From the NCBI GenBank assembly GCA_021234155.1, contig JAJEKV010000187.1, forward strand, positions 1-64,000: a DNA stretch of 64,000 nucleotides. The letters are read 5' to 3'. This DNA is from Isoetes taiwanensis (Eukaryota; Streptophyta; Lycopodiopsida; Isoetales; Isoetaceae). Below are positions 3,001-45,527 of this stretch, in pieces (position 1 is the stretch's first letter; each line of letters starts with the position of its first letter). A program made the translations under genes and the position numbers. A model generated the notes under the pieces. That model saw only the letters and a program-made list of their open reading frames with translations. It ran no database searches and had not been told where the DNA came from.

Positions 3001-4204
3001 GACACATATCTTGTCATACTGCATGCATAGACATATGCAATGCATCTATACAACTAGCATTACCCTTGATGAATTGCGTACCAAACGACCACCAGCAGCA
3101 GATGTACCACTGCCAGCAGTAGAAAAATCTGGATCATCAATATCCTCTTCAGATGCAGACATGTGATTTGGGTCTGCAAGATGGTCATCCGACCCCCTAA
3201 GCATTCAAAATTTAAGTTTCAGATTAAAATACAATAATGACATGGTTAGCAACAACTGAATGTGAAAACATCAAATGACAGTAAACTACTGGCAACAACT
3301 GAATTTGAGCATGGATTGTGTTGTACCTGGTTCCACTGCTAGATAGGCATTGAATCTTGATCTGTCAATGAAACAGATGAGAAACATAAGTATTATGCTA
3401 TTTCAAGATGCTATATAATTTGACACCTTACATGCAGAATGGTGCCTGCATAACAATTCCTAAGAGGTAAGGACACAGAAGTTGGCGAGGTTGCACCTGC
3501 ATATTCTGCTATATTGACTGTTGCTTCACCAAGAACAGTACCCCGAGGATAACCCTGCAATTGTTTAAATAGTAAACAAACCTTTTCATGCATTATAGAA
3601 GCACATAAGAAGGCCAGAGTTCTTACTGATGTCACATGAAGCTTGTAAAACTTCTCCTCAAAAACTTTCAACCTGCTGTCCTGAATAAGTGTTGTAGTTT
3701 CAAGTATCGCATCAGGCCAGCGACAAGTCCCATTTTGAACAGCAGCTTTAGATGTCCTTGTACTTGCTTTTCCTGTCTCTGGAGGTATCAATGAAACAAC
3801 CAACTTATCCCAACCTGTCTGTGGGACCTGAATGGCAAGATGAAAATATATGTTAGGCAAGACTTGGTATTGCACGGCTAGCAAACTCCAGCACCAATGG
3901 TATTGCATGCTCAGATATGTCAAGCTCACCAGTTAAATCAACCAAAAAGCTGCAACAGTTTCGCTATATATATTAGTTCATATGAAGCAATCCAAAACTA
4001 ATGTGTTTTTCCTACTTACATATGGCAAGACAGAAAAACGAGTTTTTTCAATTTTGAAAATGTACCTCTACGTGCTCAATTATGTACTAACAAATTGGGT
4101 TCAAAAAGAAGGGAAGTCATTCGTACTCTTGTGGCATGAAGCTGTAGCCTAAAATCCAACTTCTGGTTCAACTTTTCGCCCTTTTTCTTTATCGTTTTTA
4201 ACAT
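1..4204 (-). CDS. NT-C2 domain coiled-coil protein, six exons visible, 3' end beyond window
   Basis: Exons read on the minus strand are 4204-4127, 3827-3627, 3554-3432, 3361-3327, 3196-3064 and 2930 to the left edge. Each junction has GT/AG and phases agree throughout. I read all 976 codons of the last visible exon and found no stop. The start ATG at 4204 opens a basic stretch (MLKTIKKKGEKLNQKLDF) followed by LQLHATR, VPQTGWDKLVVSLIPPETGK and LHIKIQCLSSS. This is the N-terminal C2 domain of the EEIG1/EHBP1 type (NT-C2), residues about 1-150. A Ser-rich linker follows to about residue 330, then a Glu/Lys/Gln-rich coiled coil of over 800 residues. Plant relatives are annotated as myosin-heavy-chain-related proteins. 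The family is thought to link membranes to the cytoskeleton, but the exact role is unknown. The visible protein is 1,166 residues and looks intact. Confidence 0.9.
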
Positions 4205-5876: not shown

Positions 5877-5880
5877 ACTA

Positions 5881-5909
5881 GGGTGAAAGTATGCTGGTGG
5901 GTAGCAAAA
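5881..5909 (+). repeat. Element 1 left terminal inverted repeat
   Basis: 29 bp, identical to the reverse complement of 13510-13538. The host tetranucleotide ACTA lies immediately outside. Confidence 0.9.
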
Positions 5910-6213
5910 AAACGCGACCCCAGCACCCAGCACCAGCACCCTTCATACTATTTTTTCCACCCTTCACCAATTGAAGTATAACCTATGCTATGCCCGTCAC
6001 TTCACATAGGGCGTACACGTTTCAATCATAACCTTCTTACCGCCCACCGTAACTAATGACTGTGACCCGAAAGGGTAGCGAACTTTGAATTTGTAATTTC
6101 GAACCGTGCTCCCCACCTTTTGCTACTCCGGCCAAATAGCCCGCGGAGAAGAAGCTCTAGAATTTCCGGATTCACTCCAAGCTTAGTATTCCAAAACTCA
6201 AACGCCAAAAACT

Positions 6214-6279
6214 ATGGTGAAGAAGGTTGTTAATCCGCCGGCTCGGCCAAAGAATTCCAATGGATGCCATGCTTGCGGG
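6214..6279 (+). CDS. Candidate first exon of the Element 1 RING-like gene
   Basis: An ATG opens 22 codons (MVKKVVNPPARPKN... ending GCHACG) that stop exactly at a strong GTAAGC donor, in phase 0. It lies about 300 bp inside the left TIR, where a first exon of the leftmost gene would be expected, and ends in a CxxC pair. The link to the downstream reading frame at 6928 is inferred. The intervening 6350-6920 sequence is Lys/Pro/Arg-rich in plus-strand frames but broken, and I could not build a continuous model. Confidence 0.35.
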
Positions 6280-6927
6280 GTAAGCAAAATGTAAATCCAA
6301 TTTTGATGGCTTATGGTGCCCCTGTTAATTTGTTTTTCTTGATTTCTTTTCACCCGGAAGAACGTGCCCCTAAGACCCGACCTGGGCCGATTGCCGAACC
6401 GAGGAGGACTTCCATGCCTACGCTGGTCTATCAAACGAGGGTGTGCATCCCTCTCAATTTCGAACGGATGTGATATCTGCAGCGAGAATATAATGAGGTT
6501 TGGGACACCAATGGTGTCATTCAACAAGACATCCATCGACAAAATAAGGCCGAGAGCACGAAGAAGCTCTAATTGAGTCATTGAGCAAGATATACCCGAA
6601 GGATTGAAGAACGAGAAGTAAGGAAGACGGTTTCCTTTTATTTGCATTCAACAACCGCAAGAGGGCCAAGCGGGGATCCGAAAATTTCAAGGTCAATTGG
6701 GCGGCCCGAAGTGGCGCGAAAAAGCGAGCCTATTCGAGCAAGGTCAAGAGTGAACCCAAAGACCGGTGGCCCCAGTGAACACAAAGAGCCCAAAGAAATC
6801 ACGTGGTAATAACAAAGACTCAAAAGCATTGCGAGAAAAGCCACCCTCGAATCACTGGCCAGAAAATTAGAAGGGAGGTTGTCATTCAGGAGTACTTCAA
6901 TGTGTCCAAAGAAGATTCTCTCGCCTT

Positions 6928-7561
6928 ATGGGGAAAATATTTCCGTCACGAAAGCATGATCCAAGATACGAAGCCCTAAAATTGCAGCAGAATGACCTAG
7001 TGTCAAAGAAGGAACAGGCTGCACAATCTCAGGCAAAGGGAAGCTTCTTCTCGGCTGCAGAGGGGAAGTTGAAGACCATAAAGGATAATATTGCACGTCT
7101 TCAAGCACTGCCAGATCCTAATGCAGGTGTCTCTGCTGAGATTCATTCTTTGGAGAGGGAGAAAGATATGGCAGAATATATGCTGAAGTCCCTACTTGAA
7201 ATGGGGGGTGGGCCAATAGATCAAACCTGTGTAGAAAAGGTGGCTGCACTAACTGCTGAGATTGCCAACAACGAGTCCCTCCTTGCAAAAGCCCAGCAGC
7301 ACTTACAGAATGTCACCAGGCTGAGGGAGATGACCAAGAGAAATGATCAGCTGGTCAGCATCACTCCAATACCATTCCGATTGCCAATTGGAGATGAGGA
7401 GAGATGCTCCACCTGTGGTCTTGCATTCCAGGATGATTACACCCTCAGCCTGCGGATGAAATGTGGACATCATTATCACGCTAGCGCACCGGTTGCTCAT
7501 GGAAAAAGGATGTTGCCTCGAGTGCCGTGAGACCATTCCTACCGGCTTAGTGCGGAAATAG
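6928..7561 (+). CDS. Coiled-coil protein with C-terminal RING-like zinc finger (transposon accessory gene)
   Basis: The main frame (6928-7530) has a charged helical region (residues about 10-140, heptad-like, rich in Glu, Lys, Gln), then a RING-like start: C160-x2-C163, C179-G-H181 and H184. The frame then runs out. The +1 frame from about 7490 supplies the missing end (LLMEKGCCLECRETIPTG, with C-x2-C) up to TAG at 7559-7561. The finger is therefore split by a 1-nt frame break, either real decay or a consensus error. A homologue with the shared EMTK motif and a CGHTYC RING core sits in the same relative place in Element 2. RING proteins are commonly E3 ubiquitin ligases; activity here is inference. 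The true N-terminus may lie in upstream exons. Confidence 0.65.
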
Positions 7562-8532
7562 GTAAGCTTAATACAAGAAAGCAGAAGTGTTGCATCTTTG
7601 GAACAGCTCACAAAACCGAGAAGAATATAATTGATGTTGATGAGCATGTAGACACAACTCCCCGGTAGCAAAGAGGAAAAGGAAACAAAGAAATCACACC
7701 AAAAAGTAAAAGGACCCCGGATCAGCCAAGCACAAGTCCACAAGGGTTCACATTCCACGACCAAGACATGGGAAAAAAGGTACATGCCCGCTTTTGGGGC
7801 TCTATTTTGAATTGACAAAGATCGGGGTGTCTTTGTAGACATTGGACGACAAACTACCAAAGACTCTTGACTGCATCGCAAAGACTTGGCGGCCGCAGTC
7901 TTGGAGACACCAAAGCATCTTTGAATCCAAGGGAGATTCAAGTAGTAGTGATGGTGCCAACAATTATAGTATAGTTCCAAATTCTGCGATTTGCCTCTAC
8001 AAAGGCCTCCTCTAACAACGTTCTTTGCGGGGAAGGAAAACGATGGCGAAGATGTCTAATCGATTCGAACAATCGTTAAGCGGTGAACAGTTGACACGGT
8101 CAAGGACCGTGAAGGTTGTGGAAGAAGAAAGTGAGGGTGAGTCGAAAAAATGACCTTGATGAGGGCGTCCCCATAGAAGTAGCATTTGGAAAGAAAAAAC
8201 ATGGCTAATGTAATTTTGCCTTATGTATTTCGTGCAAGCAAACCTTGATTTTGCAAGACAACCCTAAACCATCACCAAAAGGTTTTTGTTCAAACAATTA
8301 ATATATTTGATCCCTGCTTTTATTCCACCTTTAATGTGCAAATTCTGGTTTGGATTATTCAACTTAGGCTTCAAAAAAACTTGTCTCAAGAAAAAAGAAG
8401 GCACCAATGGTTATACTTAGTGAATCGATGAAGAAGACAATATAGATAAAGAAGTGCCAAACAAACTCTAACATACAAAAGGTGCCTGTTATCCCGTTAT
8501 ATTTCGTAATGTGTTTGAATTTCAGTTGTTAA

Positions 8533-9585
8533 TTGCAGCTCATCCTTGCATGCAGGGAGAAACAGTGCGTGAATGAAGAAACCGAGGACAAAGGCAAAGC
8601 AAGGGTTACTGATAGCCGGGAAACACCCATACATTGGGGGCAGGGAGATACCAATAAGGATGAATCTGACTATGGCTATCAGCACTCTCCATCATCTGGT
8701 AGCAAAGATAAAGCGAGTCAAAGAGGTTGCAAAGATCCGGCCCAAAGACCTCCCGATAGCACTTCCCAGCAGAGTCCAGCACACATTGCAGCACAGACAA
8801 GCACGATGCAGCACACATCGACAGTGGTTGCAAACGTCCAAGGATGGACACCCAGACGGAAGTTGATGGTGCTGGACGTAAATGGTGTACTGGCACAGAC
8901 ACAACAGAGGAGAATGAACGGGAAAATCTTGCCTCCACCACAAACCAAGCATGTTGTAAAAGAAACTGCAAATAAGTACCTCATTTGCAGACCAGGGTAT
9001 CATGAGTTTGTGGAGTGGGCACTGCAGAGGTTTGATATTGTTATTTGGAGTGCTTCTCTACTTCGGAATACAAGGGATATGGTGGATGCATTGTTCCCTG
9101 ATTTGCAGACCAGATTCTTGAAGGTTTATGGTCAAGAGCATTGCTATGCATGCAAGCATCCAAACAGACCAGAAAAGCAGATTTTTTTCAAGGAGTTGAA
9201 GGTTGTACTTGAGGATTTTCCTCAAAATCATGGTATGATTTTCTTGGTTGATGACAGCCTACACAAAGGGTTTCTAAACCCTGCACACACAACCCTTCCC
9301 ATTATGCCTTTCAAGGGGCAAAGAGGGACAACTTTTGCGAAAGTTTGTGTGTCCAACTTTGGAATACTTGTCTTCTCATACTTTGTCAGTACAGAAACGA
9401 TCTCACAGGTTGACATCACTGATGCATGGTTGGAAGAGGAGACAGTTGTAGTGCTGGATTACTGCCTCAACAACTATCTTGTCTCGGCCTACTATATCCT
9501 CAATGCTCCATTAGAAGTACAAAGGCAGCTGCTGGGCACCCTTCCTGGCGACCAGCATGACTCTGAAGACTTCGATGACTCATGA
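8533..9585 (+). CDS. FCP1/SCP-like HAD phosphatase-family protein (transposon cargo)
   Basis: After a disordered Gln/Ser-rich N-terminus (residues 1-105) comes an FCP1-homology HAD fold. Motif I is VLDVNGVL (D115, N117), motif II is the WSAS segment at 172, and VDDS at 239-242 is the motif IV aspartate pair. The nucleophile D115 is kept, but the second motif I aspartate (general acid/base in DxDGT) is Asn. This is also seen in plant HAD relatives with a DxNG motif, so activity is doubtful. An in-frame 66-bp GT-AG segment (9343-9408, 22 codons) interrupts the domain just after the conserved NPAHT and KGQRGTTF region and is probably an intron. The first residues may be intronic: splice acceptors lie at about 8540 and 8554, and an ATG exon at 8043-8138 ending at GTGAGT is a candidate upstream exon, though phases do not match cleanly. 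The gene lies wholly inside Element 1 and is not needed for known transposition chemistry. Confidence 0.7.
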   Translation: MQLILACREKQCVNEETEDKGKARVTDSRETPIHWGQGDTNKDESDYGYQHSPSSGSKDKASQRGCKDPAQRPPDSTSQQSPAHIAAQTSTMQHTSTVVANVQGWTPRRKLMVLDVNGVLAQTQQRRMNGKILPPPQTKHVVKETANKYLICRPGYHEFVEWALQRFDIVIWSASLLRNTRDMVDALFPDLQTRFLKVYGQEHCYACKHPNRPEKQIFFKELKVVLEDFPQNHGMIFLVDDSLHKGFLNPAHTTLPIMPFKGQRGTTFAKVCVSNFGILVFSYFVSTETISQVDITDAWLEEETVVVLDYCLNNYLVSAYYILNAPLEVQRQLLGTLPGDQHDSEDFDDS

Positions 9586-9995
9586 AGTAACCATTGTACG
9601 ATTACTTTTTGTAATATATATGTATGATTACTTTGTCTTATCTTCAAGATTGAGTGATATTGAGTGATGTTCTAATCTTGAGTGTACAATTTTCTGTAAT
9701 ATATATCAAGCTTACTCTCCAATACTACAAGCATTGTTTCCAATACTAAAATACTCCAATAATTCAAACCAATACTACAAACATTGTCTTAGGGGCATTG
9801 TCTCCAATACAATGATCAAAATTTGAGACAAGTACACAAGTAACTACAGATTTGTTACAATGATAAAACAACTAGGCCAAGCATATTCAACCTTCATATG
9901 GCGGTATCAAGGATCATCCGGTGAGTAGCCCGTTCAAGGGAAAATCAAGATGCCGGGAATCGATTCATCTCAAACTTGATAGCCGATCGTGATGA

Positions 9996-12900
9996 TCATC
10001 TTGGAAAGTCGCCTTTGTCTTCAAGTAGCTCCCAACTACCATCCGGTAGGCAAAGATAGTACAAACTAGCCAACACATGTTCATCCACATTGAAGGTTCG
10101 ACCCGCTATCCTTGACAATTCTGTCAAGGATATGCCTCGGCTTAACACATTTGACCACATAGAAATCTGCATTCTCCTGATTTCCCTGCTCGGCTACAAC
10201 AGCAAAGTTATCACCTTCCTCTACGTTTCCGGATAGCCATTCTCCATCACCTTCAAAAAATGCCTCATCGATTTCGTCTTCAGTACCTTCACCAGTAGAC
10301 TTATCTGGCTTTAGTGTAACATATTTCCAATTCTTCAATGCATTGCTTGTTCACACAAGATGACCAGTTTCCTTTCAAACAGTTACCACAGAAACAACTT
10401 AAACCTCTATGAGCCACCCTTGTGCTTGATTTGGCCAAGTATGTCCGGATGCTGTGTATTTGCTTGGTCCCTTCCACCCTGGCACAGTCCAGCGGGTCTG
10501 TCCTATCAACATCATCCTTTCCAATTACCCAGAAGTACCTGCAAGGAAACAACAAGTATTGCATCTCACAGACAGCATAATACAGCACTACTCATCACAA
10601 GATGCTGGCAGTTCCGCGACAAAGACTTAAAGCGGATGAAAGCACTATTCAAAGACATTACCGGTTTACGGTGACAAAGACTACTCAACGAATATCTGGC
10701 CAGATGAAAGCATAATACCTTTTGATGTCCCCGTTGTTGGTACCTTCATTCCAGCGAGTTGCGAATTCACATGCATCAGCAGCACCCCTAAATCTCACCC
10801 CATCATACTTGAGCTGCTCTCTAGTGAATGCCCCTTTAAGGACTGCCCCTTGCCCATCGTGCTCTCCCTTACCATGGGCTGTCCCAAAGAAATTCCATAC
10901 TATTTCCTTCCCTAGCTCATGGTGATATCTTGGTAGGAAATAGAATGGCCGGGCAGATTTGAATTGGCTAGAACAACCATCTGACCAAACTATATGCCTG
11001 GAGAAATCTACACCATTTGATACAAGCCATGAATTGTGCTTTCTAAGACAGTGCTGCACAAAAAGAGTGTCATGAAGCTTGTCATCACTCAAGTAAAAAT
11101 GGGTTTCCTTCAATAGCTTTCTGATCCCAGAACTGATGTCCATCCTATACGTGATGTGGACGAGAATTGTTATCTGGTCATTGTGCCAATGCTGGCTTTG
11201 AACCTCCCTTTGTATTTTTATGCTGTAATTCTCTGCAAAATCAATTACAGAAACAATGGTGTCATCTTGGATATTGTCCAGGCAACTCCTGAATTGCATG
11301 GCCTGCCATCTAGCCCTGTAATTGTGTGGCACGAATATCTTCAATGTGGAACACAGATATGAAATGAAATCCTTCACTGCCGTTCTCTTGTAAGACAATC
11401 TGAGGACTGGCTTTGGTCCTTTTTTTTTTTTCCCTTGCCATTTGAGGTCTCGTCTTGTCTTTGCAGCTTCGATTCACCAGTCCCACCGACTTGCTTGGAT
11501 TTCTTACTTTTGTTTCCCTTCTTCTCAACTTGTGCTGCAGCTTCAGGCTGTGTCCCACCAGCTACCTTGGATTTCTTACTTTTGTTTCCCTTCTTGGTGG
11601 CATTTTTCTGCTGCCACCTGGCACCTCCTTGGTAACGCAAATGCAACTCCACCGGCCTCTTACTGTCTCCACCGGAATGCAGAATAACAAGGTGCAGTAG
11701 CATAAAACGTAAGATTAGCGCAAGTTGAAAGCACAAAAGCAGTTTTCAGCGGATGACAAATACATATCGATGTTGCAAATGCAATAAAGAGAGTATTACC
11801 TTTTCAAACGTCTTCCATTCAAGCAAGAACTCATGATTCTCTCTCTCTCTTGGACATATAGGAAGAGTTTTTATGCCACACTTCTGACATGTCTGCATCA
11901 AGCAGTCATGTTTATGCCATTCTTCACCCTCGCTCTTGTTGCAAACCACAGCCCTCCAGAGCTCGCTGGTTGAGTCATACATATATTGGCTGGCCAGACA
12001 CGTCTCACCAGGTCCACAGACCTCGCAGGTGCACTTGCACTCTTCACCATGAAATCCAGTTTTCGCTGACCTTAATGCATTCAGGGCTACCCTGGCATAC
12101 TCCAACTTCATATGGTATATGCAACAACAGGTTTCCCTTTCTGATACTTTCTTTACATAAATAGGCTTCAACTTCTCGAAAGCCTTTAAGCAAACAGGGT
12201 GTTCAGGATGTGCCTTTTTGTATTGTTGAAATAGCTCCAGCTGAATGGTGGCCGTTGGTTAGAAATATTTATGCAACAATAGCAAAGAAAAATTTGTATG
12301 GAAACTTATACCTGTGTGACCTCCATAAGGTGCAAGGGATAAGAAATTCGGAAGCCTGACTCTCCAACAGTGTTCACAACATCTTTCTTGCAAGGAGAGA
12401 CTCTGCTATTTTGTTTCCAGAATTTTGTTATGCTTTGCTTGCAAGCAGGGGTGAGAGAATCGCACCTCAACCTCCTTTGGAAGCTAGACCACGGACCATT
12501 TCCAAGGACGGCTTCCGATTTTCTTAATGCAGCAGTTGCAATTGTTGACCTCATGCAACCTATCATAAGAAATATTGCACATTAATCAATGAACATATCT
12601 CATCCAAAGATCACTCAAAGATACAAGCACTTAAAAGCACTTAAAAGCACGAAGAAGCACAGGCATGAAAGCAAGAATTAGATGCACCTAACAGCCCTGC
12701 CATAGTGGAATTGCATCTCGATTTTGTGGAAGAAGCCATCACCAGTGTCGAGGTTCTGGCTCTCCAAACATCATGGTTCCTTTTGCCTCTTTGTGGCTGC
12801 CATTGTCTGTTTCAAGTTGTTGAGCAACGACCCCGCTGCCTTGCACTCCTTTGGATTTGGCAAAATTCCAGGTTCTGAGATTTCCATTTCGTGGTGATGA

Positions 12901-13238
12901 ACCACCCTCTTCATCACATCGGCCTTGAGTTCGGGTGAATGTTTTTTGGTGAGCTTATTGAAGTAATCAACTACTTGCTTGGCTATTTCTTGCCTGCGTC
13001 TCATGCTCAGATCCTCCCGTTCAGCCGCTGCTTTTCTCATCTTATTCCGTAATCTGTATTCTCTCTTTCTCGCTGCATCCAATTTCTTGTAAATTGCAGA
13101 GGAAACTGGATCTTCACGTGATATTTCCTGTGTTGCATTGACATCCAACAAATCTGGAACACTGTATTGGGATTCATCAGGCCGAAAATCCAATGCTAAA
13201 CGTGTGATTGCCTCCAGGCCGGTATCAGGGAGCGCCAT
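9996..13238 (-). CDS. DDE-type transposase of Element 1, five exons, frame breaks present
   Basis: Likely exons are 13238 to about 12740, 12559-12312, 12240-11800, 11658-10719 and 10538-9996, with GT/AG at the junctions from exon 2 on. Exon 1 is basic and helical. Exon 2 has a helix with the KFWKQNSRVSP motif. Exon 3 is Cys/His-rich (ETCCC, CKCTCEVC, CQKC, ICPRE), a probable zinc module. Exon 4 has a Lys-rich linker and the catalytic core: VIDFAENYS, QSQHWHNDQITILVHITYR, VWSDGCSSQFKS and HGKGEHDG, plausible D, D and D/E positions of an RNase H fold. Exon 5 has LSCFCGNC...C...C. Breaks: an in-frame TGA ends exon 1 at 12771, a 12-A run in exon 4 shifts frame before the core, and two 1-nt shifts lie in exon 5. 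The copy may be inactive unless these are sequencing errors or, for the A run, recoding. Confidence 0.75.
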
Positions 13239-13487
13239 GAAATTCTTGAGAGAGGGAGGATAAGTGAATTGGAGGGAGAAATTTCGCGGGCCATGACGAA
13301 GTAATCCAATTTGCAACGTACTACCACACCACTCGCGCGAAAATCCAGCCAAAAGCCCACAATCATTTTCCTAACGTGGACGTGCGAGTACATGAAGGGC
13401 GTAAAAAGAAATGACGGGCAGTTACGCCCATCAGCACCCAGATTAAGCAAAAGCAGGGGTGCTGATAGCGGGCTAAAACCCTGCTAT

Positions 13488-13511
13488 AAGCATGCGTCCG
13501 GACGCATGCTT
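13488..13511. repeat. 24-bp perfect palindrome next to the Element 1 right terminus
   Basis: The sequence reads AAGCATGCGTCC followed by its exact reverse complement, and its last two bases overlap the inner edge of the TIR. The left end has no equivalent. It could be a subterminal transposase-binding or cruciform site; the function is inference. Confidence 0.8.
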
Positions 13512-13538
13512 TTGCTACCCACCAGCATACTTTCACCC
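13510..13538 (-). repeat. Element 1 right terminal inverted repeat
   Basis: Exact inverted copy of 5881-5909. The flanking target duplication ACTA follows at 13539-13542. Confidence 0.9.
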
Positions 13539-13751
13539 ACTAAGCGCAATTAACGTCTTTCAAAAACAAGGTGTTGTGCACGGAGGGTTGCCCTTCAGTG
13601 TCCCGAGGGTATGTTTGCATATGTTTTTGCCATTTTGTGTGGGGGCAGGCTATCATGCCATTGGCAACAAGTTAGCTTATTACAACTTGCAACTTTGATC
13701 TCCTGTGGAATAACAGTTTCCTAACACGCAAATCACAACTATGCAACCATA

Positions 13752-13918
13752 CAACTTAGCAAAACTTACTTCAAAGCTTTCTTCAGGTGGATGCACATCA
13801 GGAAGAGGCTTGCAAATTATGCTTTGAGAGGTATATCCTTCTGAGGCAAAACTTACTTCAAAGCTTTCTTCAGGTGGATACACATCACGAAGAGGCTTGC
13901 AAATTATGCTTTGAGAAG
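13752..13918. repeat. Tandem duplication of an 85-bp unit
   Basis: Two nearly identical copies in direct orientation, joined end to end. On the minus strand both are open and encode the same peptide (SQSIICKPL...PPEESFEVSF), so the unit may be a duplicated piece of an unknown exon. No protein family recognised. Confidence 0.7.
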
Positions 13919-15029
13919 TATATCCCTCTGTTCTTCTTTGAAGGATTAAAAGACAAGCAAAGCAACGAAATTTTCATGAACACAGTATTGCAGCATGCTG
14001 CCTGCATGAACACAATATCACAGCTACTACTCGAGCATAATAAGCTATATCTATATGAATTGGGGATTTGTGAATCTTAGCTCTCATACAGACAAAGCTA
14101 TCTGCAGATTTACAGTCAAGATGAAGGTTGTATGCCTTTTATGTGAAAATACCTATATGGCTGCAAAAGAAAGTAAGCAATGTGCATGGTGTTAAGTACT
14201 AAAGGGACACAACATGCATGCATGCATGGTATGCATGCGCTGTGTGCATGCATTGTGTGCATGTAATTGATACACTTAAGCAAACATTAATTACGTCGAG
14301 AAATTTAAAATTCTACTTGAGCACGAAATAGGTCGAACGCTACTCACACGACCAAAAATATGGTCATTGTGAAGCAGAAGTTGGCATTTTATCCTAGGGT
14401 TTACGCCAGAGAAATTATAACGTGTGTGAAATTGCATGTAAGGGAACTATCCCACACTCTTGCTCGACTAAAAACATATGCAAGGAAGATGCTAAAATGA
14501 TTATGAGAATCGCGAAGGCGAAAACTTTTTGCAATAAATGAGTAATTTCTTTAACTGTTTCAAAAATTGAAAAAGGATAAAGGCCGCAAATAACATTCAC
14601 AGTAATAGCACAACAACATTTTTATAATAAATAAAAATATGTTAAAAAGAATTGCCACGACGATCTACTCGATCACTGAAGCATAGATGGCATTAATAAA
14701 TGACAAATAGAATTGAGTATTCAAAATTGGTCATTCCTATTTATCATATGTTATATCAGATACCAAGGGGGTTTCACTTTTGGGTGCCATACAATGTGCC
14801 TGAGTGACTTGTAGGGGGGTTTTTTGGATCCATTTCCACACGTATACGGCAGAGTTAGAGAGGTTTTTGACCACTACTTGGAGTAAGTTTTGTATAGAAG
14901 GGGTCAAATTTGCCTTTCAAAAAACCGTATACGGGGGCGTTTTTGGTCACCCTCTGCACGCACATGGCATACCCCCTTTTGTATAAGTGCATCCCCCGGG
15001 TCAGATACAAGATCCCTTGAGCGATAAAA
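13919..15029. other. Intergenic
   Basis: Contains a GCATGC-rich stretch near 14216-14275 (CATG/TGCA simple sequence) and AT-rich DNA. ORFs at 14415 and 14804 show no recognisable protein. I see no gene. Confidence 0.4.
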
Positions 15030-18450: not shown

Positions 18451-20924
18451 ATAAAATTGAAGGGAGAGCTGCTACTAATACTACTTGCAGGATTCACATA
18501 CCTCATTATATTCGAACTATAGTAACAGTATTAACTCTGATCAAGAAAACAAATCGGTTCATACATTTGCAAGGCATGTTCATCTGTTTATTTTCACTTG
18601 GCTTACTTGACTATGAATATGTAGCATTATAACAGGGGTTTTTTTTTGTGATTTTATACGCTTTTTGGCATGGTTTTTATATGATTTCATGGGCGTATTG
18701 CACAAGGCATACTAATCAGTACATCTAGAGTGCACACTGGATTCTCATATTTAAATGGCATTTTAACTATGGTTTTGCAATGGTTTTGCCTTGCATGTTT
18801 TTGTTCCTTAAAAACTTAATTAATTTAATTTTATGAAGGCCATGCAAGCAACGAGGCATTCAACTTTAGGGTTCGTGGAGAAGGGGATTTAGAGGACCGT
18901 TTCCGGCAGTTTTCTTTTCGCTATGGCTTCCACAGTTCTCTCTGATGGCTAGATTATTAGCTTTAAAGAGGTTTTTACTAGTGAAGGGGATTTAGAGGAC
19001 CATTTTGCAGCAGAATCTGAGAAGCAATCTAAGTATGGCGCATTACCCCATTCAAAACTCCGATTAGGCTCCTGGTCAATTTGTTTGTCCTCATGCCCTG
19101 AGTAAATCGCCATCAGAGCAAGTAAAGGCAGATCAGAGCAGAGGTAGATGATCGGAAGGTTCAACAGATTATAAGCTATAAGCTTTGAGGGCATACCGCA
19201 GTGCTTAGATGATCGAGTGATTCAAAGGATTTTTTAAGCTATGGGTCTCATGCTTGGGGTTGCAAGTATTTCTCTGGAATAAAATGATGTACTGCAGTTG
19301 TTGTGTTGTGGGCTCCAGTTAGAGTTGTATTGAAAAGCGAGATGGTTGGAGGCAGGCCTCTACTATTAATTTGGGTTGCTTATAATCGGATTCTCTAGAT
19401 TTAAAGCTACATCTGCCATTTTCTCTGATGCAAAGCTTGCATTTGCAGCTCAGGAACAATTAGGTATTGCTAACTGTCTTGCACCGTTAATGGCTAAGTG
19501 GATTTACTTCCCATGCTCTTAAATGGCAAAAAGGCAGATCGATCAAGTCTGGGATGTATTCTAAGAAAACTGGCTATGGATCATTGAACTGCTGGCGATC
19601 TGGCCTGCATATTGTAAGGGGTAACTAGTTGGCTGCACATATAAGTTCTTTGTATATACCTTCAACCCTGTCATCCGTTTCAGCCTTGTTTTCCAGAACT
19701 TCCTGTTGAAGGTTCATCTCTACATTTGCTTTTGCAAGCTTCCTGGTTTTGACCAAGATAGATATCAGCAGCGGCCCCTGATGCCTCCTGACATTTCCCT
19801 GAATCTATCATATGCTGAGGTAAGCATGTATCCCTTAAACAGCAGATGCAAGTTATTTAATGGCATGTCTGGTGCAAGTTATGAAGTTAAAATGCAGGGC
19901 AGCTATCAGAACAGGCTATTAGGGTATCAGGCAGGCAGCACCATGTGGTTGTCATGCAAAGATTAGCCATATCTCTTGGCACAGGGGCTTTAAGTACTGG
20001 CGAGCAGCTTTGTCTTGATACATGGATGGTTTGGTACGTTTTTTGTGTTTCCGTGTATTTCAAAAACACTGTTGCTTTGTTGGTGTAACTCGGCTATTCT
20101 AAAATTGTGTTATGCCTGTGGCTCAATAACAACTAATATTTGTGATTTTTTCCAGTGGCCTTACTATTGGCTTTGCTATATACATAGATATTTGAGAAGA
20201 TGTGTACAAAGATGTGCCTTACAGCCATGGAATATTTGGTATGTAAGATAACGACTTGAAGAACTTTTTATATTTGCTGGTAACCATGATCATCAGTCTT
20301 TCATTTTTTGCAGCCTTTCTTCAAACTCACTGTTATGTTATGTTTTACTAAGAGGTGATGCACTTTTGATGGGCCAATCTTGCCCTGGTTTTACAGGTTC
20401 ATTGAAAACATCTGGAGAATTTGATTTAGTTCTATCATGCTACCATATATTGGCAATACATGTACTTACAAGATTACATTTCAGAATAAGATGTTTGGTT
20501 GCACACCATTGTGTCTGCTTACTTAGTATCATTGTGATTTGACTAGTGACTTAAACAAACGTGACATCCTTCATGGCTCCATTTCCTAAACACATGTTCT
20601 AACATGTCTAGAATATGGAATTCTACTACCTAAGGATATTGTAAGTGGTTTACATCATAAATGCATTCTCTTTAGCATTATTTTTTTCATCAATATTGTA
20701 GAGTTTCGTTTTGTATTCCAATATGTAGAATGGAGACCCTCACAATGATATAAATTTTTTGGCCTACTTGCTTATTACAAATATATATTATAGAATTTTT
20801 TGCAGCGCAACTATAAGTGGTCTTCAAGGCCACACTGTCTTAGGCACAAGAACCTATAGCAATGTACGCAACATTCATACACAATTTTCATTGCCCCGAA
20901 GGGGCAAAAAAAATTTTGAACCTA
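18451..20924. other. Intergenic
   Basis: AT-rich with short ORFs only. 19706-19966 (plus) is the longest and matches nothing I know. No RNA gene or repeat of note was seen, apart from a small GGGGC/GCCCC hairpin near 20895. Confidence 0.4.
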
Positions 20925-21279
20925 TAACACAAACCATTACATTACATCCATTAAAATTAAATTCCCCCTTAAACCCCCTTTTGTTTGGGTGCATATTCAC
21001 ACGGGGGGTGATGTAGGGCAGCGAGAGCCCTTTTAATTATGTTTTGCATGTACAAAATCAACACCATATAGTATATTACCTGAAATCTTATAGTATTTTG
21101 CAAATCTTGTTATACAGTATCATAATTTCTATACATCCATACCCCACAAACGAGGAATTTTGTGTACGGTGTAGATTAAGGAATAAGGGGTGAATATGCC
21201 TATCCAACAGCTCTCGTTGACTCCGGGGGGTTTAAGGGGGAATTTAATTTTAATGGATGTAATGTAATGGTTTGTGTTA
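20925..21279. mobile_element. MITE, 355 bp, 54-bp perfect terminal inverted repeats
   Basis: Arms at 20925-20978 and 21226-21279 are exact inverted copies beginning TAACACAAACCATTACATTA. The interior (about 250 bp) is non-coding. If the element proper starts at ACACAAACC, a TA target duplication flanks it, as in Tc1/mariner-type MITEs. That assignment is tentative. Confidence 0.85.
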
Positions 21280-22157
21280 TGATAATATTCTTAGATGATA
21301 AAGGCTCTTGAAATAAGTCCTACTTACTTGCTTCGTGGTTTGCCTTGCCTACGTAATCTGTAACACAGTATCTCTAAATGAAGTCAGATTGATTGAAAAT
21401 CAAATTTGGTCCAATTTCAAAACCAAGAAATCGCTATCTATTGATAGACAAAGCATCATATTTTTCCAATAGAAACACTCCTTTGAGCCAAACCCGACTT
21501 CAATTAGCAGTTCTTAAAGTTTGCGCCTTCAAAGAAATGACCAGAAGGAGTTGGGAGCAGATGAAGGAGCTTCACTTGGAGCTGCAACTATGTGAGCGAT
21601 GTCATGATTCCCACCGCATCTGTCAGGCGATGAACATGGCAAAATTGTATCTTTAGCAGACATCCTAGAGGGTCACAAGAATAACATGCCCTAACTATAT
21701 GAATTGAGCAATGTCATTACAAAGATCATCATAAGGATCATTGCAATCTACATCATATTCATCATAGAAAGGTGATGATGTAGATGCGAAGTAACACACA
21801 ACATAAAAGATGGCACTACCATTATTGCAATGGAGTTTGATCCATATGTAGTGATTATATCTATTATCTTTATGAAGCATAACATATAGAGCAAGGTCAT
21901 CCTTGAGATATCAAGCAACTCCACCACAACCTATTTGCCCATGACATTCATTAAATAATGAAAATGATTGATAGCCTATGAAATGAGGTAGCCTTTTGGC
22001 AGAATGCTTCCATGTTTGCATGAGCAGAAGGATATCCGTATCTTTTGCAATTGGATTCATGTCAGGGATAGGTTCAATATCGTATATATTTTACACTCAA
22101 TAAGTATTATTCGATGACATGATACAATTTTGAAGTATAATACGTCAAAAATATGGC

Positions 22158-22188
<31 letters not shown>

Positions 22189-22984
22189 CGCGTAAGCGAA
22201 AGAACAATTTCGCGTAAGCAAAAAGGTCCGCGCTTACGCGAAATATTTTTTAATTATGGGCATTGCTTCGCTTACGTGAAACTTCAGTTTCACTTACGCA
22301 ACACTGCTTCGTAAGCGAAAAAAAATTTGAATCTTTCGCTTACATGAAGTTTTTTTTCCATAAGCAAAATTGAAGTTTTGCTTAAGCGATTTTTTTTTCC
22401 CGACCGGCGAGGAAAAAATACAAGAAATATATTTTTACCCCAAGATTCTTATTTTTCAACTTTATATGTCCAGAATTTTTTATTTATATGTATAGAACCT
22501 ATTCCTGATTCATGCCATCACTTTTATACTAGAGAAAACCTCAATAATTCCAAGACACCAATAATTGTGTAAGCTGAAGAGGCTTGAGCTATGGAGGTGA
22601 TGACAACAATAGCAATAGCAGCAACATCAGCAATAGCAGCATCAGGTGTACCATTAGTAACACCGTGAGAGGAAGAGCCTTGAGCATGAGAAGATGTGGT
22701 GGGTGCAGAAGATGGAAAAGTAGAATGCACATTTGCAGCTTTGGCATGTGCATGTGAAATGGGAGAATGGACTCCAACAGCGGCGGTATGAGTGGTCATA
22801 GAATGATGAAATGCGTCAGGAAAAGTTGCATGTGATGGTGTAGAGATGCGTAATTTCCATGGATCAATGCAGCCTTATAAGTAATCTTTTGAATGTCATG
22901 GACCTTTTGTAAATCCTGGCGTCTTGCTACTTAATGTGACTTAGTAAGATCAAAACCCAAATATAGAGATGTCCATTTCGATCA
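21280..22984. other. Intergenic up to Element 2
   Basis: Short unrecognised ORFs at 21393 (plus) and 22799-22524 (minus; Ala/Ser/His-rich, low complexity). Contains the GCGTAAGCG repeat cluster listed separately and a long A run at about 22158-22184. No gene supported. Confidence 0.4.
22183..22400. repeat. Cluster of about ten GCGTAAGCGAAA-like motifs in both orientations
   Basis: Degenerate copies of a 10-12-bp motif (GCGTAAGCGAAA, or its complement TTTCGCTTACGC) recur every 15-25 bp, some adjacent in opposite orientation so that hairpins can form. An uninterrupted A run of more than 25 bases sits just before. No coding sense. Confidence 0.75.
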
Positions 22985-23005
22985 GGGTAGAAGCATAAAA
23001 GGGTG
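22985..23005 (+). repeat. Element 2 left terminal inverted repeat
   Basis: 21 bp; one mismatch to the reverse complement of 45507-45527. Preceded by target duplication ATCA. Shares the GGGT start and A/G-rich pattern with the Element 1 TIR. Confidence 0.85.
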
Positions 23006-23339: not shown

Positions 23340-25350
23340 ATTTTTTGTGCAGGATGTTGTATCCCCTTTCTGCAGAATGGATCGATGTCTTAAAGCACCA
23401 GTTGAAGAAAAAACTATAGAAGAAGATTGAACTCTCATGCAAGCACTTCGAGGTCAGCATCGGGTTCAGATTTCAATCCTCCTGTTGATGAAGCTTCGGA
23501 AAGCACTGTTACAAGCAGACAAAGAAAATCAAAACAGAGGGTTTGTAGGGGTGGATACGTGACAAAGCCAATACAAGGAAAGTGAATGCTGCTGTAAATC
23601 TCATAATGAATGAGGTATCTAATTTGACTCCAAAACAGCAAAGTATATTTGCAAGAAGATTATTGCAGGACAAAAGATTGCAATTCCTATTTGAGCCAGT
23701 CATTGGAAGGCCTCAAGAGGCTATCGTGAAAACAGATCTGGTGAAGAATTAAAGGATGGCCTCCAAGATGTCAAACATGCAAATAGCAATGACAAACTTG
23801 CTGCAAAGCATTCTGTACTATCTATGGTGGTTGGAGAGGAAGGAGAATTACAGAAGACTTCACTACCAGCTAAGTTGCTGAAAATACATCCTAGAAATAT
23901 GAAACTAGCAGTGGAGAGAAGGAAAAGAATGTCACTAGGTGGATCAGGCTATGAAGGATATGGTTGCTCAGTTTTGGTTAGATAACTCAAAGGTTTCACC
24001 AAAAATTAGAGATGTCATGAAGAAGATGACACAACCAATTCAATATATTGACATTACACAGGTACGACTGTAATTTAGCTGTAATTGCATCTTTTTTTGC
24101 AGAATAAAGTTTGCTCTACATGGAAATGTCAAATTATTTCATGGCAACACATATTTGTTTACATGTATATTGTGGATGTATTGTAGATATAGGCAGTAAC
24201 TAAGAATAAATTAGTGTGGAGATGTATTAATTGTCAAGAAATTATGTGACTTCATAGTAAATGAAATAAAATTCATGTCAGAATATACATGTATGTGTGG
24301 GAGTTTAGGGTCTTGAATATGTAAAAGATTTGTATGTAATGTAATGTAATGTAATGTAATGTAATGAGGTGACTAATTTTATTTCACTGTAATTTTACAG
24401 GCTGAATTATTCCAGAATTTTATGGATCAGTATCCAGAGGTTCGGATTGGGCTTAGGCAATTTGAATACTTAAAACCTTCTTGCATTAGAAAGCTAAAGG
24501 AAAGAAACAAATGTTGTTGCGTGAAATATGAGCAATCAGATCTGTACAAGTAGGCATTTAATTTGATGAGGTCAAGACTCCATGAAAATTGTTCGTGCAA
24601 TTGTGGTGTGTGCGTATCTGAAGCTCATGCTGGGATATGTCAAGCCAAGAACAAGACATTTGATAATGTTAGCACATTTTGGAGAGCTATGGTATGTCAC
24701 AGAATAGCAGGCAACGAGTGGCATAAGCTACAATGTATCAAATCAGATTGTGGAAATTGTGGGAAACAATTAATTGAGTTGTGTCCAAGAGAATACAATG
24801 CGCAGCTTGGTCAAAGGCTTGATTGGCAAGTCTATGATTACGTTAATGAGCCCTCGAAGAAAGGAGCTTCACGAAGACTAAAGCTAATTGACAAGAAAGG
24901 CAGCTCCAGTAATATGTTGGATAACATGTTTGATCATATGTCGAAGTTTATATATCATAACTTTGTGGCACATTGGCAGAGCAAACAATTCAAGGAATCC
25001 ATGAAGAGTCTTCGTGATGATACCGTATTATCAGTTGTTGATTTCTCGGAGAATTATACTTTGAAACCATTCAACGAGATTCAAGCACAACATTGGTACA
25101 ATGAACAAATCAGCATATTGGTCCACATCACGATGTTCAAGTTACAGGGTAAAATGAGAAAATGTGTGCACTTCTTTATTTCAGATGACAAAATACATGA
25201 TACTCACTTTGTACAAAAAGCATTCAAGATGCACCTCAATTGGCTGAAAGAAATTGGTGCTAAAATACCACTTAGTTTGGTCTGACGGGTGTGCAGCCCA
25301 ATTCAAGTCGAGAAGAGCTTTCTATCATTTCCCTGCTCTGGTTTTGCAGT
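23340..25350 (+). pseudogene. Transposase relic of Element 2
   Basis: The N-terminal part (about 23370-24060) is broken by stops but ends in AQFWLDNSKVSPKIRDV, matching exon 2 of the Element 1 transposase. After an intron holding a TAATG microsatellite (about 24334-24365), 24402-25300 encodes the Cys/His module (NKCCCV, CSCNCGVC, CGNCGKQL, LCPRE) and the core (VVDFSENYTLK, IQAQHWYNEQISILVHIT, ISDDKIHDTHFVQ). A 1-nt shift near 25262 moves the WSDGCAAQFKSRRAFYHFP segment into another frame. Homology stops about 25345, so the HGKG segment and C-terminal domain are deleted. An in-frame TAG also lies near 24551. Confidence 0.8.
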
Positions 25351-26813: not shown

Positions 26814-27315
26814 CTAAGCAGTGTCGCAGGTCTCGGACCATGAACAATCATGTACACATGTATTCGTCGTTGAAACCCTAAATAGAAGACAAAATAGACA
26901 ATATGTATGACCACAAAGTGGAGATATTACCATGGTCGAGTCAGGGCAATCATTGCAGCTGCTGCAAGTATTGGTAATATGTGAGGATGAAGCGCTCCGT
27001 CTTGCTGCGAGTATGGGAGCGGGCTGCAGGCCTATCGGGTCTGATCTTTCCAAATGCTTAGTCATCTCCTTTATTCTATTCTCACAGTTGGAATTAACTT
27101 CCAAATCCTTGCTGATTTTTTCAATGGCAGCTTCTAATTCTTGCAAATCAGCCTTTAAACAATCAATGGGAATCATTAGAGCATCTAAGTCAGCAATATA
27201 ACTTGATTTCTCCTCCTCTAAGTGGGATGCCAAAGCCATTTGCACATCAGTTGGCTTCCCGCTTGCTTTTAAACCTGCCATAATGCTGAACTGCTCACAT
27301 ATTTGTGCATCTTTA
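26814..27315 (-). pseudogene. Element 2 RING-like coiled-coil gene, 3' part
   Basis: The frame reads out of the Copia A target site and continues through a coiled coil (ASHLEEEKSSYIADLDAL..., NRIKEMTKHLERSD) into a RING-like finger, C-x2-C ... C-G-H-T-Y-C-x2-C ... C-x3-C, ending at a stop at 26814. EMTK and the Cys/His core match the Element 1 gene at 6928. Joined across Copia A after removing one CTTTA copy, codons run on without a break into 44542-44640. Insertion of a 17-kb retrotransposon makes it non-functional. Confidence 0.75.
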
Positions 27316-27807
27316 TGTTAAAATCAATGCAATCGCCACAGTCTTCCAACACAAATCTGTGTCTGCATCCACCCACTGTATTCTTCAGTTGATTACATTA
27401 ATAGTCATCAATCTGGCGGTTCCGGGATGGATAAACTTTCCAATCCAGGCTTCTTCAATAAATACCCAAATATCCCATAGGATAAACTTTAAACCATGGA
27501 AACCTAACCATGTTACCACGTACAAATTTTCCACGCGTATTTTATACGACAGAACCGTATACGAGCACTGAAGGGGAAATACGCGCTTATCTTTTGATTT
27601 TAAACGCATCAAACGCAGGCAGCGCCCATTTTCATCTTCGATGCTCTTTACTTGCATTCACTGCCACTGCTTCTCATGAATGCTTGTATGAATCCTCATT
27701 AGCCCAGGGGAGCCAAGATGTGGTCACTAATCCCCTGAGTCTTTGCAGCTTTATTGTATAAAGACCTATACTTCTGCTCAAATATCACATGACACATAAT
27801 TTTATCA
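27316..27807 (-). repeat. Copia A 3' LTR
   Basis: 492 bp. Pairs with 44041-44541; differs by scattered substitutions and a small indel near 27476. A polypurine tract lies just inside. Confidence 0.9.
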
Positions 27808-27854
27808 TCCCCCCTTCATGTGATATTCCCTGTTGTCACAGTGTAGCAGACTTC

Positions 27855-29470
27855 TTAATTCCAGAAATCTGGACAATGTGAACTAACATAAGTTAAATGC
27901 ACCTGATCTTTCTTTACCATATCCCTAATAAAATGAACCTCCATATCAATATGTTTTGACCTTTCATGCAGAATTGGGTTTTTTGTCATAGCAATACAGC
28001 TAGTATTGTCACAATAGAGAACTGTTGGTCCTGTTTGTGCAAATCCAAATTCTTCCATGAGTCTTCTTTCCCAAATTATTTCTTTAGTCAACAAGGCTGC
28101 AGAATTGTACTCAGCTTCAGCACTGGATAGTGTAATGCTTCCTTGTTTTTTACATTTCCAGGCAATTGGAGCTCCACCTAATAAAACCACATACCCTGAA
28201 GTAGATTTTCGTTTGTCTAAATCCCCTCCCCAATCAGCATCACAATAAGCTTGCAACTGCAAATTAGCTTCACTAAATAGAATACCATAATGCATTGTAC
28301 CTTTCAAATATTTTAAGATTCTTTTTGCTGCATTCCAGTGACCTCTTCCAGCTTTATTATTGTACCTGCTGAGAATATTGACTGCAAATGCAATGTTAGG
28401 CCTAGTACAGTTTGCCACATATGATAAGCACCCAATCAAACTCCTGTAGGGTATTTTTTCCATTTCTTTACTTTCTTTTTCAGTTTTTGGGCTCATGTCT
28501 GCAGAGATTTTATGACCAGGCACCATGGGAGTATGTGCCACATTACAATTTTCCATATAAAATCTCTTTAACATATTTTGAATATGTCCTTGTTGACTTA
28601 GAGCTAGTATCCTTTGATTTCTATTCCTGTATATATCAATACCCAGAAATCTTTTGAGTTCTCCAAGGTCACTCATTTGAAATCTCCTTTTCAAAATATC
28701 TTTGCAATGATTTAGTACTTTATTTCCATTTGCTACCATAATGTTGTCATCAACATACAAAGCAATAATGCACCAATCATTTCCCATTTTAAATCTGTAA
28801 ATATTCCCATCATAATTGAGCTTTTCAAAACCCTGTTCTAACAAATATCCATCCATGCACTTATACCATTCTCTGGGAGATTGCTTAAGGCCATACACTG
28901 CTCTATTTAATCTCCACACTTTACCTTTTTCTTCTTCAAATCTAGGTGCAGGTTTTAGATATATTTCCTCTTCCAATTTAGTATTCAAAAATGTTGTACT
29001 TACATCCATATGATGTATTTCATAATCACAGGCATTTGCAATAGCCAATAGCATTCTCAAGCTGTTTATCTTCACTAATGGTGAGAATGTTTCATCAAAA
29101 ACTTCTCCCCTTTTTTCTGTGTGAAACCTTGAGCAACCAGTCTGGCTTTGAATTTCTTTGTTCTTTTATCAACACCAGGTTTCACTCGATATATCCATTT
29201 ACTTCCAACTATATTCTTATTCAATGGCATATCTACTATAGTATAAGTGTTTGTTCTCTTAAAAGCACTCATTTCTTCTTCCATGGCATTTAGCCAGTTT
29301 TTTCCATGAGAATCATGCACTGCTTCATCATAATTTTGAGGTATTTTATCATTTTCCAATATCAAAATATCAAATACTGTATTAATTTCTCCTGCAACAG
29401 ATCTGAATCTTTTGCTTCTTCCAATTTCATTTCTCCCATCACTACAAGAGGATAGTCATTTTTCATCACT
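27855..29470 (-). pseudogene. Copia A reverse transcriptase and RNase H
   Basis: Two overlapping frames. 29365-29075 holds the RT N-terminus (NIVGSKWIYRVKP, KARLVAQGFTQKKG) and 29075-27855 holds MDVSTTFLN, LYVDDNIMV, YADWGG-like and the RNase H signatures SSAEAEY and SKHIDMEVHFIRD. One frameshift separates them. The C-terminus ends close to the polypurine tract. Confidence 0.9.
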
Positions 29471-31336
29471 TTAATATCACCTAAAATTCTAAAAAGTATT
29501 AAGTGATACAAATAATGATATTCAGTGACACTACTAATGACAAGATTCTATCATCTATAGCATCATCATTATCGTCATAAATTTGGTCAACAATTATATC
29601 AGTATTAATTAATGATAGTATATGTGTTACTAATAGCGTCATGAATAATATCACATATTGCATCAACTTTACCATCATTTATTACTCCAATGGTGTTAAT
29701 GACAATATAAGTGTTATAGCTCATGCCAATTACAATATCACCTATAGCTTCATCTATAGTATCACATATTGACAATATTATATCAGTGCTAGTATATGAT
29801 GCTATATGTGTCGATAATAGCATCATGGATAATATCATGACTTACATCACTCTTACTATCAATACTTGTTGTAATTTTGGTAATGATAATTCAAATGTTA
29901 ATGCTTATGACAATTGTAATATCATTTGTAATGGCACTACCTTCTCCGAACTCTCATAGACAAAGTACACAAAATGATATTACTTGAACAAGAAAGAAAA
30001 AGATCTATTAGAGCAAACTTTCAAGTGCCACTTCATTTCACCTATCAGGCAATCTACAGGCCACTCCAGGACATGATATGTGGAATTGTGGGATCATACT
30101 TGGCAATCTCTGTCACAATTTTGCAGGAGAACACCTGCGTCAACGGTGGCAGTTTTTGCTGCTAGATCTGGAGCTATGGTGGAAGAAGACTGATCTAGAG
30201 CTATGGTGGAAGAAGAGCTAGATCTAGAGCTGCAAATCTAGGTTGATGAGAAGGCCTTCGTTTCCTCCTGGACACACCAATACGGAAGAGCTGTGAGCCC
30301 CTTTGCTTATCACTTTAATTTTTCTTCCCTATTGCACTACATTTGCCACAGTTGGGATCAATTCCTTCTCAGTTGTTAGGCAGGCTTTGAGCCTATGCAA
30401 GACCATCCAAGGTCGACCACCTCAAACTGTGTATTGAAATGTGAACTTTAGTATTTGTGGCACGTTCCGATTATAGAAGCCACATATAGAGATGTCCGGA
30501 TTTGCTACCATACCTCCATATTTTTTAAAGACTAAAAAACGTTTACGGCTGTTCGATAGCTGGCAAATAGCAGAGATGAATATGAATATTTTGGAAAGCG
30601 ATTTAACTGTGAAGGTTTAAGGCAAGTGCTGGAATGCTATCTTCTAGTTTGGATGGGCTCCATTTTATTTCATGAATTGTGGAGCCAGAACTCCAATGTA
30701 TACTATCCATACAGAATGTGTCTTTCATGTTTCAATTGATACGTAATATGTGTGTCCCAAAGACTCGTGTGTTTATATAAGATGATCCATGTCTTAGGAT
30801 TAAAACATTTTCTAGGAAGTCAAGATGCATAACATAGCAAGCCATGGCTATAAGCTTCTAGAAGGCCATGTTTTTTATTCTCATGTTTTGAAATGTTTAT
30901 TCTCAAACATCTCAACAAACTAATATTAACAAAGTTAACAAGCTCTGTGTATAAAATTATTATGTGTGTCATGATAAATCAACCCTAAATGCCTGGGCAC
31001 GAAAATAGTGGTATCTACTGCTCAATGCATGATTGTATAAGAGAGGCCCATAAGACCCTCTCACAAAGGTATACCTTAGTGATTTTGCCTTGGAACATGA
31101 CGACACCATATAGGTTTTGAAGGCTTTGGAGCAGGGACCACCTAATCTTAATGCATTGAACGTGGAAATGCTAAAGTATCAGAATAGGCTTCCATATTAT
31201 GTTAGGTTCTACAATTTTGTTTGGAGGCGTGAGAATGCAAGTAGTGGCATACCAAATCCTCAATTATCTCTTCCTTCTCTCTTTTCTCCATTAAACCCCT
31301 CTCAAATTTAGCAAGGTATTGCCCATATCTTCCTTT

Positions 31337-31464
31337 TTGTATAGGGGAATGGAGGTTGGGGCCTCCATTCTGGGTTTTCAGATGGGGTCTCGCGACCGGC
31401 GTTAGCCGAGAGCGGGTCACCTGGAAATCGGAATGGAGGCCTCAACCTCCATTCCCCTATACAA
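31337..31464. mobile_element. 128-bp hairpin MITE
   Basis: 34-bp arms at 31337-31370 and 31431-31464 are inverted copies with one mismatch, starting TTGTATAGGGGAATGGAGG. The loop is about 60 bp. Each arm also contains a GGAGG...CCTCC sub-palindrome. Confidence 0.8.
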
Positions 31465-32072
31465 TATAGAAGTTGGGGACGTTTTTTTTCTTTCTGCAAA
31501 TCCAACAAATTTACAGGGCATTTGCCAGCAGACTTACAGCATTCTTACAAGATCCGACAAGGTTTTACAAAGATTTTTCGTCCCTTGAACAGATCCTGCA
31601 ATAAACCTGCGATTTTTCGACCCTTGAAGAGATCTGCTACCTGTGCAGAAGTAAACTACATGCAAACTAGGTCAAAGAGCAGGCATTGGGCCGAAGAACA
31701 AGGCCATGGCAAGCATTTCTTTTGAAGAATTGGGCGTTGGATCAAAAACAGAGGAAGAACATGCCTATTGCGAGCTTCAAAATGCTCCGTTGTGGTAACG
31801 ATGGCAAGCACCGTGAAGAACTGTCGATCTGTGAAGAACTGGCGATGGCAAGCACTCCAGTCTGGGAAGAACTGGCGATCTGGGAAAAATTGGCGATGGT
31901 GAGAACTAGCGGCGACTACAAACATAAAACAAAACCTAAGAAAGCCCTAACCTGCGCAGCCGGTCAGTCAGAATGCGTGAAGCTAACTTCCATTCTGTGT
32001 TATTGGGTGATGCCACGCGTCGGCATCGAAATGCACACCACTAAAAATAACGGACCCAACTTCTATATTGTT
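31461..32072. repeat. Inverted repeat pair ACAATATAGAAGTTGGG, possible 0.6-kb element
   Basis: 17-18-bp inverted copies at 31461-31477 and 32055-32072 bracket about 610 bp with one unrecognised plus-strand ORF (31686-32081). The left copy overlaps the 31337-31464 hairpin, so the two may be parts of one composite element. Confidence 0.5.
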
Positions 32073-36328: not shown

Positions 36329-36395
36329 CTCCTTCTTCAGCACACAGGTTTATAACTTTCAGTAACTTTCTGCTGATTTCTGAAACATGTAAACT

Positions 36396-41630: not shown

Positions 41631-41651
41631 TGTTCTGGCTCTGATACCAAA

Positions 41652-44010: not shown

Positions 44011-44040
44011 GATTACTAGACCTTGAAGCTCTGATACCAA

Positions 44041-45506: not shown

Positions 45507-45527
45507 CACCCTTTCATGCTTCTACCC
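45507..45527 (-). repeat. Element 2 right terminal inverted repeat
   Basis: Inverted partner of 22985-23005; followed by ATCA at 45528-45531. Confidence 0.85.

Follow-up and report, generated by a model that had tools for sequence, protein, structure and literature searches.

A 64,000-nucleotide stretch of the Isoetes taiwanensis genome (assembly GCA_021234155.1, contig JAJEKV010000187.1, positions 1 to 64,000 of the forward strand; hereafter the window) carries a DNA transposon of 7,658 bp (E1, 5881-13538) that is, in all likelihood, one copy of a high-copy family with terminal inverted repeats (TIRs) in which a RING gene and a HAD gene are regular, selected parts, while a second element of the window (E2) belongs to a sister family of the same plan with an ULP1-like gene replacing the HAD gene. 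A single genome would thus hold two large families with selected RING, FCP1-like and ULP1-like genes in fixed places, i.e., many natural replicates for asking what accessory genes give a transposon, in a plant lineage that has been little studied in this respect.

E1 is delimited by perfect 29-bp TIRs (left 5881-5909, +; right 13510-13538, -) that are 90% alike over 39 bp, and by an unstranded 4-bp target site duplication (TSD), ACTA, on either side (5877-5880 and 13539-13542). Between the TIRs lie, in this order, the RING gene, the HAD gene and, on the opposite strand, the transposase, and the element and three gene units of the original prediction are borne out both here and in sister copies elsewhere in the genome. 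The 17-bp E1 end has 349 exact matches in the assembly (1,658,258,908 bases, 1,110 contigs) and the reversed control none; the matches listed (100 of 349) include 34 pairs of neighbours no more than 30 kb apart, and 30 of these pairs are in forward-reverse orientation. We studied 24 copies, i.e., every forward-reverse pair spanning less than 10 kb among the matches listed (six pairs of 12-25 kb were left out). All 24 have an exact 4-bp TSD and TIRs of 20-29 bp, and apart from AGCA, which occurs twice, their TSDs are all different. These copies show that the E1 family is a TIR DNA transposon that has been mobile at many sites in the past, presumably by a cut-and-paste route.

At a tblastn coverage of more than 40%, the RING region is present in all 24 copies, the HAD gene (NIF domain) in 22, the transposase core in 22 and all three genes in 20; the exceptions retain one third of the NIF domain (L012), no NIF domain (L021), one third of the transposase core (L020) or no transposase core (L022). 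The prediction had allowed for a one-off capture or for spurious ends, i.e., a TIR pair unique to this locus or copies that mostly lack the RING and HAD genes, and the genome search for ends and TSDs that it proposed rules out both, given the 349 ends, the 24 exact TSDs and the 20 three-gene copies. Searches with the proteins point the same way. The HAD protein gave 118 matches at 53-100% identity (4,637 first-look candidates, 116 scored) and the transposase core 149 at 62-100% (9,452 candidates, 146 scored). Counting one row per locus (two and three second rows removed), at least 49 of the 116 scored HAD loci, E1 included, have an opposite-strand transposase match within 3 kb (0.06 expected), always downstream and never on the same strand among the matches listed. 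Of the 24 HAD loci on contigs with listed E1 ends, 17 have an exact E1 end within 10 kb and none has a listed E2 end nearby.

Individual copies are worn. Exact motifs survive in 7 (RING), 13 (LD[VI]NG), 20 (WSAS) and 23 (LVDD) of the 24 copies, and the transposase Asp motifs D1, D2 and D3 in 9, 15 and 12, respectively. The many small frame breaks in the seven copies inspected may be due to either decay or assembly error, the assembly being described as built from Nanopore reads with Illumina polishing (PMC8566536). E1 itself is broken or mis-assembled: its RING frame is broken after the first half, and owing to one in-frame TGA and three frame breaks in the transposase reading and a stretch of the HAD frame that differs from eight other copies, it is not intact as assembled.

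The coiled-coil/RING gene of E1 (6214-8208, +, frame broken in several places) consists of a first exon set by eye (6214-6279), the coiled coil and RING (6871-7530) and a charged tail that ends with a TAA near 8206. Pfam reports the RING of E1 itself at E=0.021. The open frame of a sister copy, L026, matches the full zf-RING_2 domain at E=4.3e-4 (20.9 bits vs a cut-off of 27.3) and that of L016 a RING at E=0.0063, both below the cut-off, and both proteins have all eight zinc ligands in RING order (CSTC-x15-CGHxYHxSC-...-CLEC). By zinc-ligand order the predicted E1-type protein qualifies as a RING finger, with a putative role as a ubiquitin ligase.

The main exon of the HAD gene (8556-9585, +) follows a splice-acceptor-like AG and carries the motif LDVNGV. 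Its NIF domain (ca. 8860-9321, inside the frame 8533-9585) is recognized by Pfam at E=1.8e-16 (60.6 bits vs a cut-off of 21.8), and the same domain was found in all nine HAD proteins scanned. The motifs LD[VI]NGV, WSAS and LVDD are conserved in 13 of 13 HAD frames and KEL is present in all nine aligned proteins. However, motif I reads D-[V/I]-N-G-V in all 13 frames, with Asn replacing the second Asp of the DxDx[T/V] signature of active phosphatases. HAD enzymes use the first Asp as nucleophile and the second as general acid, so that phosphatase activity of the E1 protein is doubtful and weak or no turnover is expected; cellular plant relatives with D-x-N-G exist. The term “phosphatase-like” thus holds for the protein family and fails at motif I. 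The FCP1/SCP/UBLCP1 phosphatases share the NIF domain with the E1 protein but differ from it in motif I, and the latter sits in a transposon. Searched alone, the E1 HAD protein matches UBLCP1 (3shq, E=4.1e-4); a profile of nine HAD proteins matched no solved structure in PDB at E<=1e-3, and AlphaFold, run on one sequence, returned a poor model (pLDDT 34). Literature searches with the motifs found nothing on E1 transposon proteins.

Given that the HAD exon starts at an AG acceptor and that conserved coding sequence precedes its first conserved Met, the RING and HAD units could also be a single gene encoding a spliced coiled-coil/RING-HAD fusion. We consider this unlikely, as a TAA follows the RING tail at the same aligned place in both subfamilies of the family (in frame in E1, L023 and L026) and the shift in identity between the subfamilies sits between the two units. 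Against L009, L023 and L026, three members of the other subfamily, E1 is 63-78% identical over element positions 1-2700 and 78-98% beyond; against L018 identity is 89-99% along the entire element. The half of the element with the RING gene thus differs in history from the half with HAD gene and transposase, which recombination between elements would explain most simply.

In agreement with the multi-exon transposase that had been predicted, the gene was modelled on the minus strand with ca. five exons and splice sites set by eye: exon 1 (12688-13238, with the in-frame TGA), exon 2 (12312-12549, boundaries by eye), the Cys-rich exon 3 (11800-12240), exon 4 (10719-11658), which holds the candidate catalytic Asp motifs and a frame break at a poly-A run, and exon 5 (9996-10538, two frame breaks). 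No Pfam transposase domain was found in this reading. Three conserved Asp motifs, spaced by 86 and 40 residues, form a candidate catalytic set, from which we infer a putative DDE/D chemistry; AlphaFold gave a poor model of the core for two sequences (pLDDT 35), and scans of viral-contig and genome-contig collections returned no relatives.

TSDs measure 8-11 bp in MULEs, i.e., longer than the 4 bp of E1, 8 bp in hAT, 3 bp in CACTA and in PIF/Harbinger and 2 bp (TA) in Tc1/mariner, and read TTAA in piggyBac. All six assignments are contradicted by the varied 4-bp TSDs of the E1 family and the absence of any Pfam transposase match. The superfamily of E1 is unproven, and its 4-bp TSD fits Sola2, with which E1 shares the TSD length, TIRs and a long transposase and whose members can bear cargo such as Fanzor1 (PMC3627910). 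The excerpted text of PMC3627910 describes no RING, HAD or ULP1 cargo, and amoeba families of Sola2 have AT-rich, AWWT-like targets from which the TSDs of the E1 family depart (e.g., GCCA and TTCC). On account of the same TSD and TIR match (PMC3627910), the family might already stand in Repbase or Dfam, e.g., as Sola2, with its cargo recorded there. This seems to us quite unlikely, as no RING and HAD cargo surfaced among the titles and abstract openings of a PMC literature search, and the main text of a 2026 review of plant gene capture (PMC13317346) is devoid of the whole words RING, phosphatase, FCP1, ubiquitin and Sola.

The second, diverged element of the window, E2 (22985-45527), is interrupted by a copia element. 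Its ends read GGGTAGAAGCATRAAAGGGTG at 22985(+) and 45527(-), with TIRs at 22985-23005 (+) and 45507-45527 (-) and the unstranded TSD ATCA at 22981-22984 and 45528-45531. It retains exon pieces of a transposase without the 3' part (23930-25340, +) and a coiled-coil/RING-like gene on the minus strand, whose 3' part (26814-27315) and 5' part (44547-45270) are separated by the copia (27316-44541, -, TSD CTTTA on both sides, nested elements inside). The frame 24554-25285(+) shares 40% identity with the core of the E1 transposase (E=5e-35). The two elements are laid out alike, in that transposase and coiled-coil/RING gene run inward from opposite ends.

The RING genes of E1 and E2 resemble each other weakly (pairwise E=0.018; hhalign probability 48%, E=1.8e-4). 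The score of the RING-bearing tail exceeds those of all 2000 full shuffles and of 1998 of 2000 local shuffles; for the coiled coil alone, 499 and 656 of 2000 shuffles score as well. When matched to the E2 RING-like protein, a different coiled-coil frame from the window outscores the E1 RING gene, and a search of four full E2-family copies with the E1 RING protein gave no match at E<=0.01. Homology of the two RING genes is therefore likely, judging from these comparisons, and not proven. The Cys/His pattern is there in the E2-type protein, with Pfam reporting zf-rbx1 for L051 (E=0.069), zf-C3HC4 for the E2 of the window (E=0.29) and no RING family at E<=1 for L053. As a separate observation, the first part of the L049 RING frame has ca. 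150 extra residues relative to L051-L053, possibly an insertion.

E2 likewise belongs to a large family, its end occurring at 1,585 genome places with at most one mismatch. A search with the E2-type RING protein scored 150 of 1,301 candidates and returned 150 matches. Of the 25 such loci on contigs up to C916 (query locus included), 17 lie within 10 kb of an E2 end among the matches listed (100 of 1,585), and none is near an E1 end, again among the matches listed. We examined four full copies of 9.4-11.3 kb (L033, L034, L035+36 and L049+50), three of which have an exact TSD (the flanks of L035+36 are unequal). In all four, the transposase and the RING-like gene are accompanied by a shared middle gene on the strand of the latter, and a NIF/HAD gene was not detected in any of them at E<=0.01. 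Loss of a HAD gene by deletion in the E2 of the window was thus dropped as an explanation. In the broken copy L033, the middle gene (pieces joined with X) matches Peptidase_C48 at E=0.0072 (16.6 vs a cut-off of 20.7 bits) over profile positions 8-189 of 217, and an SCGLYVM-like motif is found in three of the four copies (none in L034). On these grounds we call the predicted middle gene ULP1-like.

Selection was assessed by dN/dS, computed pairwise and without a tree from Nei-Gojobori counts with a custom script. At deep divergence ratios are low. The RING coiled coil of all 13 copies of the other subfamily vs E1 gives 0.17-0.29 (dS 0.73-1.10). Among open NIF frames (the short L047 and L048 excluded), L046 gives 0.18-0.24 against nine others (dS 0.72-0.84) and 0.29 against E1. 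The E2-type RING frames compared (L051-L053, 422-426 aa; L054, 379 aa; a piece of L034) give 0.15-0.25 in seven of eight deep pairs, the eighth being saturated. For the transposase core exon, 12 copies of the other subfamily vs E1 give 0.18-0.42. Shallow comparisons range higher, i.e., 0.54-0.88 for NIF in 12 copies of the other subfamily vs E1 (dS 0.15-0.22), 0.28-1.17 for RING in 11 copies of E1's own subfamily, 0.25-0.96 for the other listed HAD pairs (dS <0.3), and values of 0.52 and 0.78 in the two close pairs of E2-type RING. The shallow values of 0.5-1.2 for HAD and RING are expected of decaying copies, yet give no support for selection.

Captured gene pieces are frequent in plant transposons (PMC13317346), and with shallow ratios of 0.5-1 the RING and HAD genes might be regarded as passengers, captured once, spread by hitch-hiking and functionless for the element. 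We find this very unlikely given the dN/dS of near 0.2 at deep divergence, the presence of RING and HAD genes in 20-24 of 24 copies, and the occurrence of a RING-like gene at the same position in two families with only ca. 40% identity between their transposase cores. We instead read the data as suggesting that both genes were kept by selection during the multiplication of the elements, with single copies decaying later.

To our knowledge, few accessory genes of DNA transposons have a known anti-silencing part, VANC being one of them. By analogy, the nearest parallel to the E1/E2 accessory genes is VANC together with the Ulp1-bearing KIU (Kaonashi) genes of VANDAL elements. These MULEs of flowering plants are DNA transposons, too, and likewise have an accessory gene next to that for the transposase; VANC counters silencing, and KIU carries a Ulp1 domain (PMC13317346), as the E2 family seems to do. 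They differ in their ends and TSD, RING and HAD genes go unreported for them in the excerpted source, and an anti-silencing part of the E1/E2 genes is putative. We postulate, with somewhat less than even confidence, that the RING protein serves the element as a regulator of its own, occupying the slot that TNPA, MURB or VANC fills in other plant transposons, and that the third gene would contribute an activity aiding escape from silencing; the RING protein could act as the specificity factor and the third protein as the effector against silencing. With its D-[V/I]-N-G-V motif, the HAD protein would be a binder more than a cleaver of a phosphorylated partner, e.g., an RNA polymerase tail. More tentatively still, the two families could represent a plant transposon superfamily with a swappable protein-modification kit, i.e., a fast-evolving, recombining RING specificity factor plus an exchangeable enzyme or pseudo-enzyme (FCP1-like or ULP1-like), which would disarm host silencing via ubiquitin, SUMO and phospho-tail signalling.

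It is also possible, at a comparably modest level of confidence, that the accessory proteins work inside transposition and have no role in silencing. The RING protein would then cap the amount of transposase by ubiquitination, while phosphorylation or sumoylation of the transposase would be tuned by the HAD or ULP1-like protein; an adjustment of the transposase amount or of the strand-transfer complex seems about as doubtful to us. The fixed position beside the transposase and the purifying selection would suit a control of transposition, and nothing in these data points to DNA methylation. However, the exchange of the RING half with retention of the transposase half agrees loosely with the idea of a tight transposase partner, and the second Asp of HAD motif I is absent in 13 of 13 frames, which also argues against it.

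Several minor features of the window were recorded alongside the two elements. Directly outside the right end of E1 lies a tandem pair of 85-bp repeats (13759-13930, 95% alike), and ca. 2 kb from E1 a C2-like, exon-like frame (3411-3932, -) and matches to a long coiled-coil protein (ca. 150-2670, by eye) are perhaps parts of a single host gene. At 20924-21280 lies a perfect 55-bp inverted repeat, perhaps a small non-autonomous element, whose arms are 247 bp apart. The repeated ends of the copia (27316-44541) are 97-98% alike and further copia-like frames lie inside it, as does a pair of 300-bp repeats (starting points 35684 and 41652, 98% alike), which may delimit a second copia; a 42-bp inverted repeat (90% complementary, arms 60 bp apart) at 31329-31472 resembles a MITE-like hairpin. 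Just beyond the right end of E2 is a tRNA-Val (TAC) gene (45873-45946, +), and a 668-aa open frame farther on (61088-63094, +) looks, by eye, like a pentatricopeptide-repeat protein.
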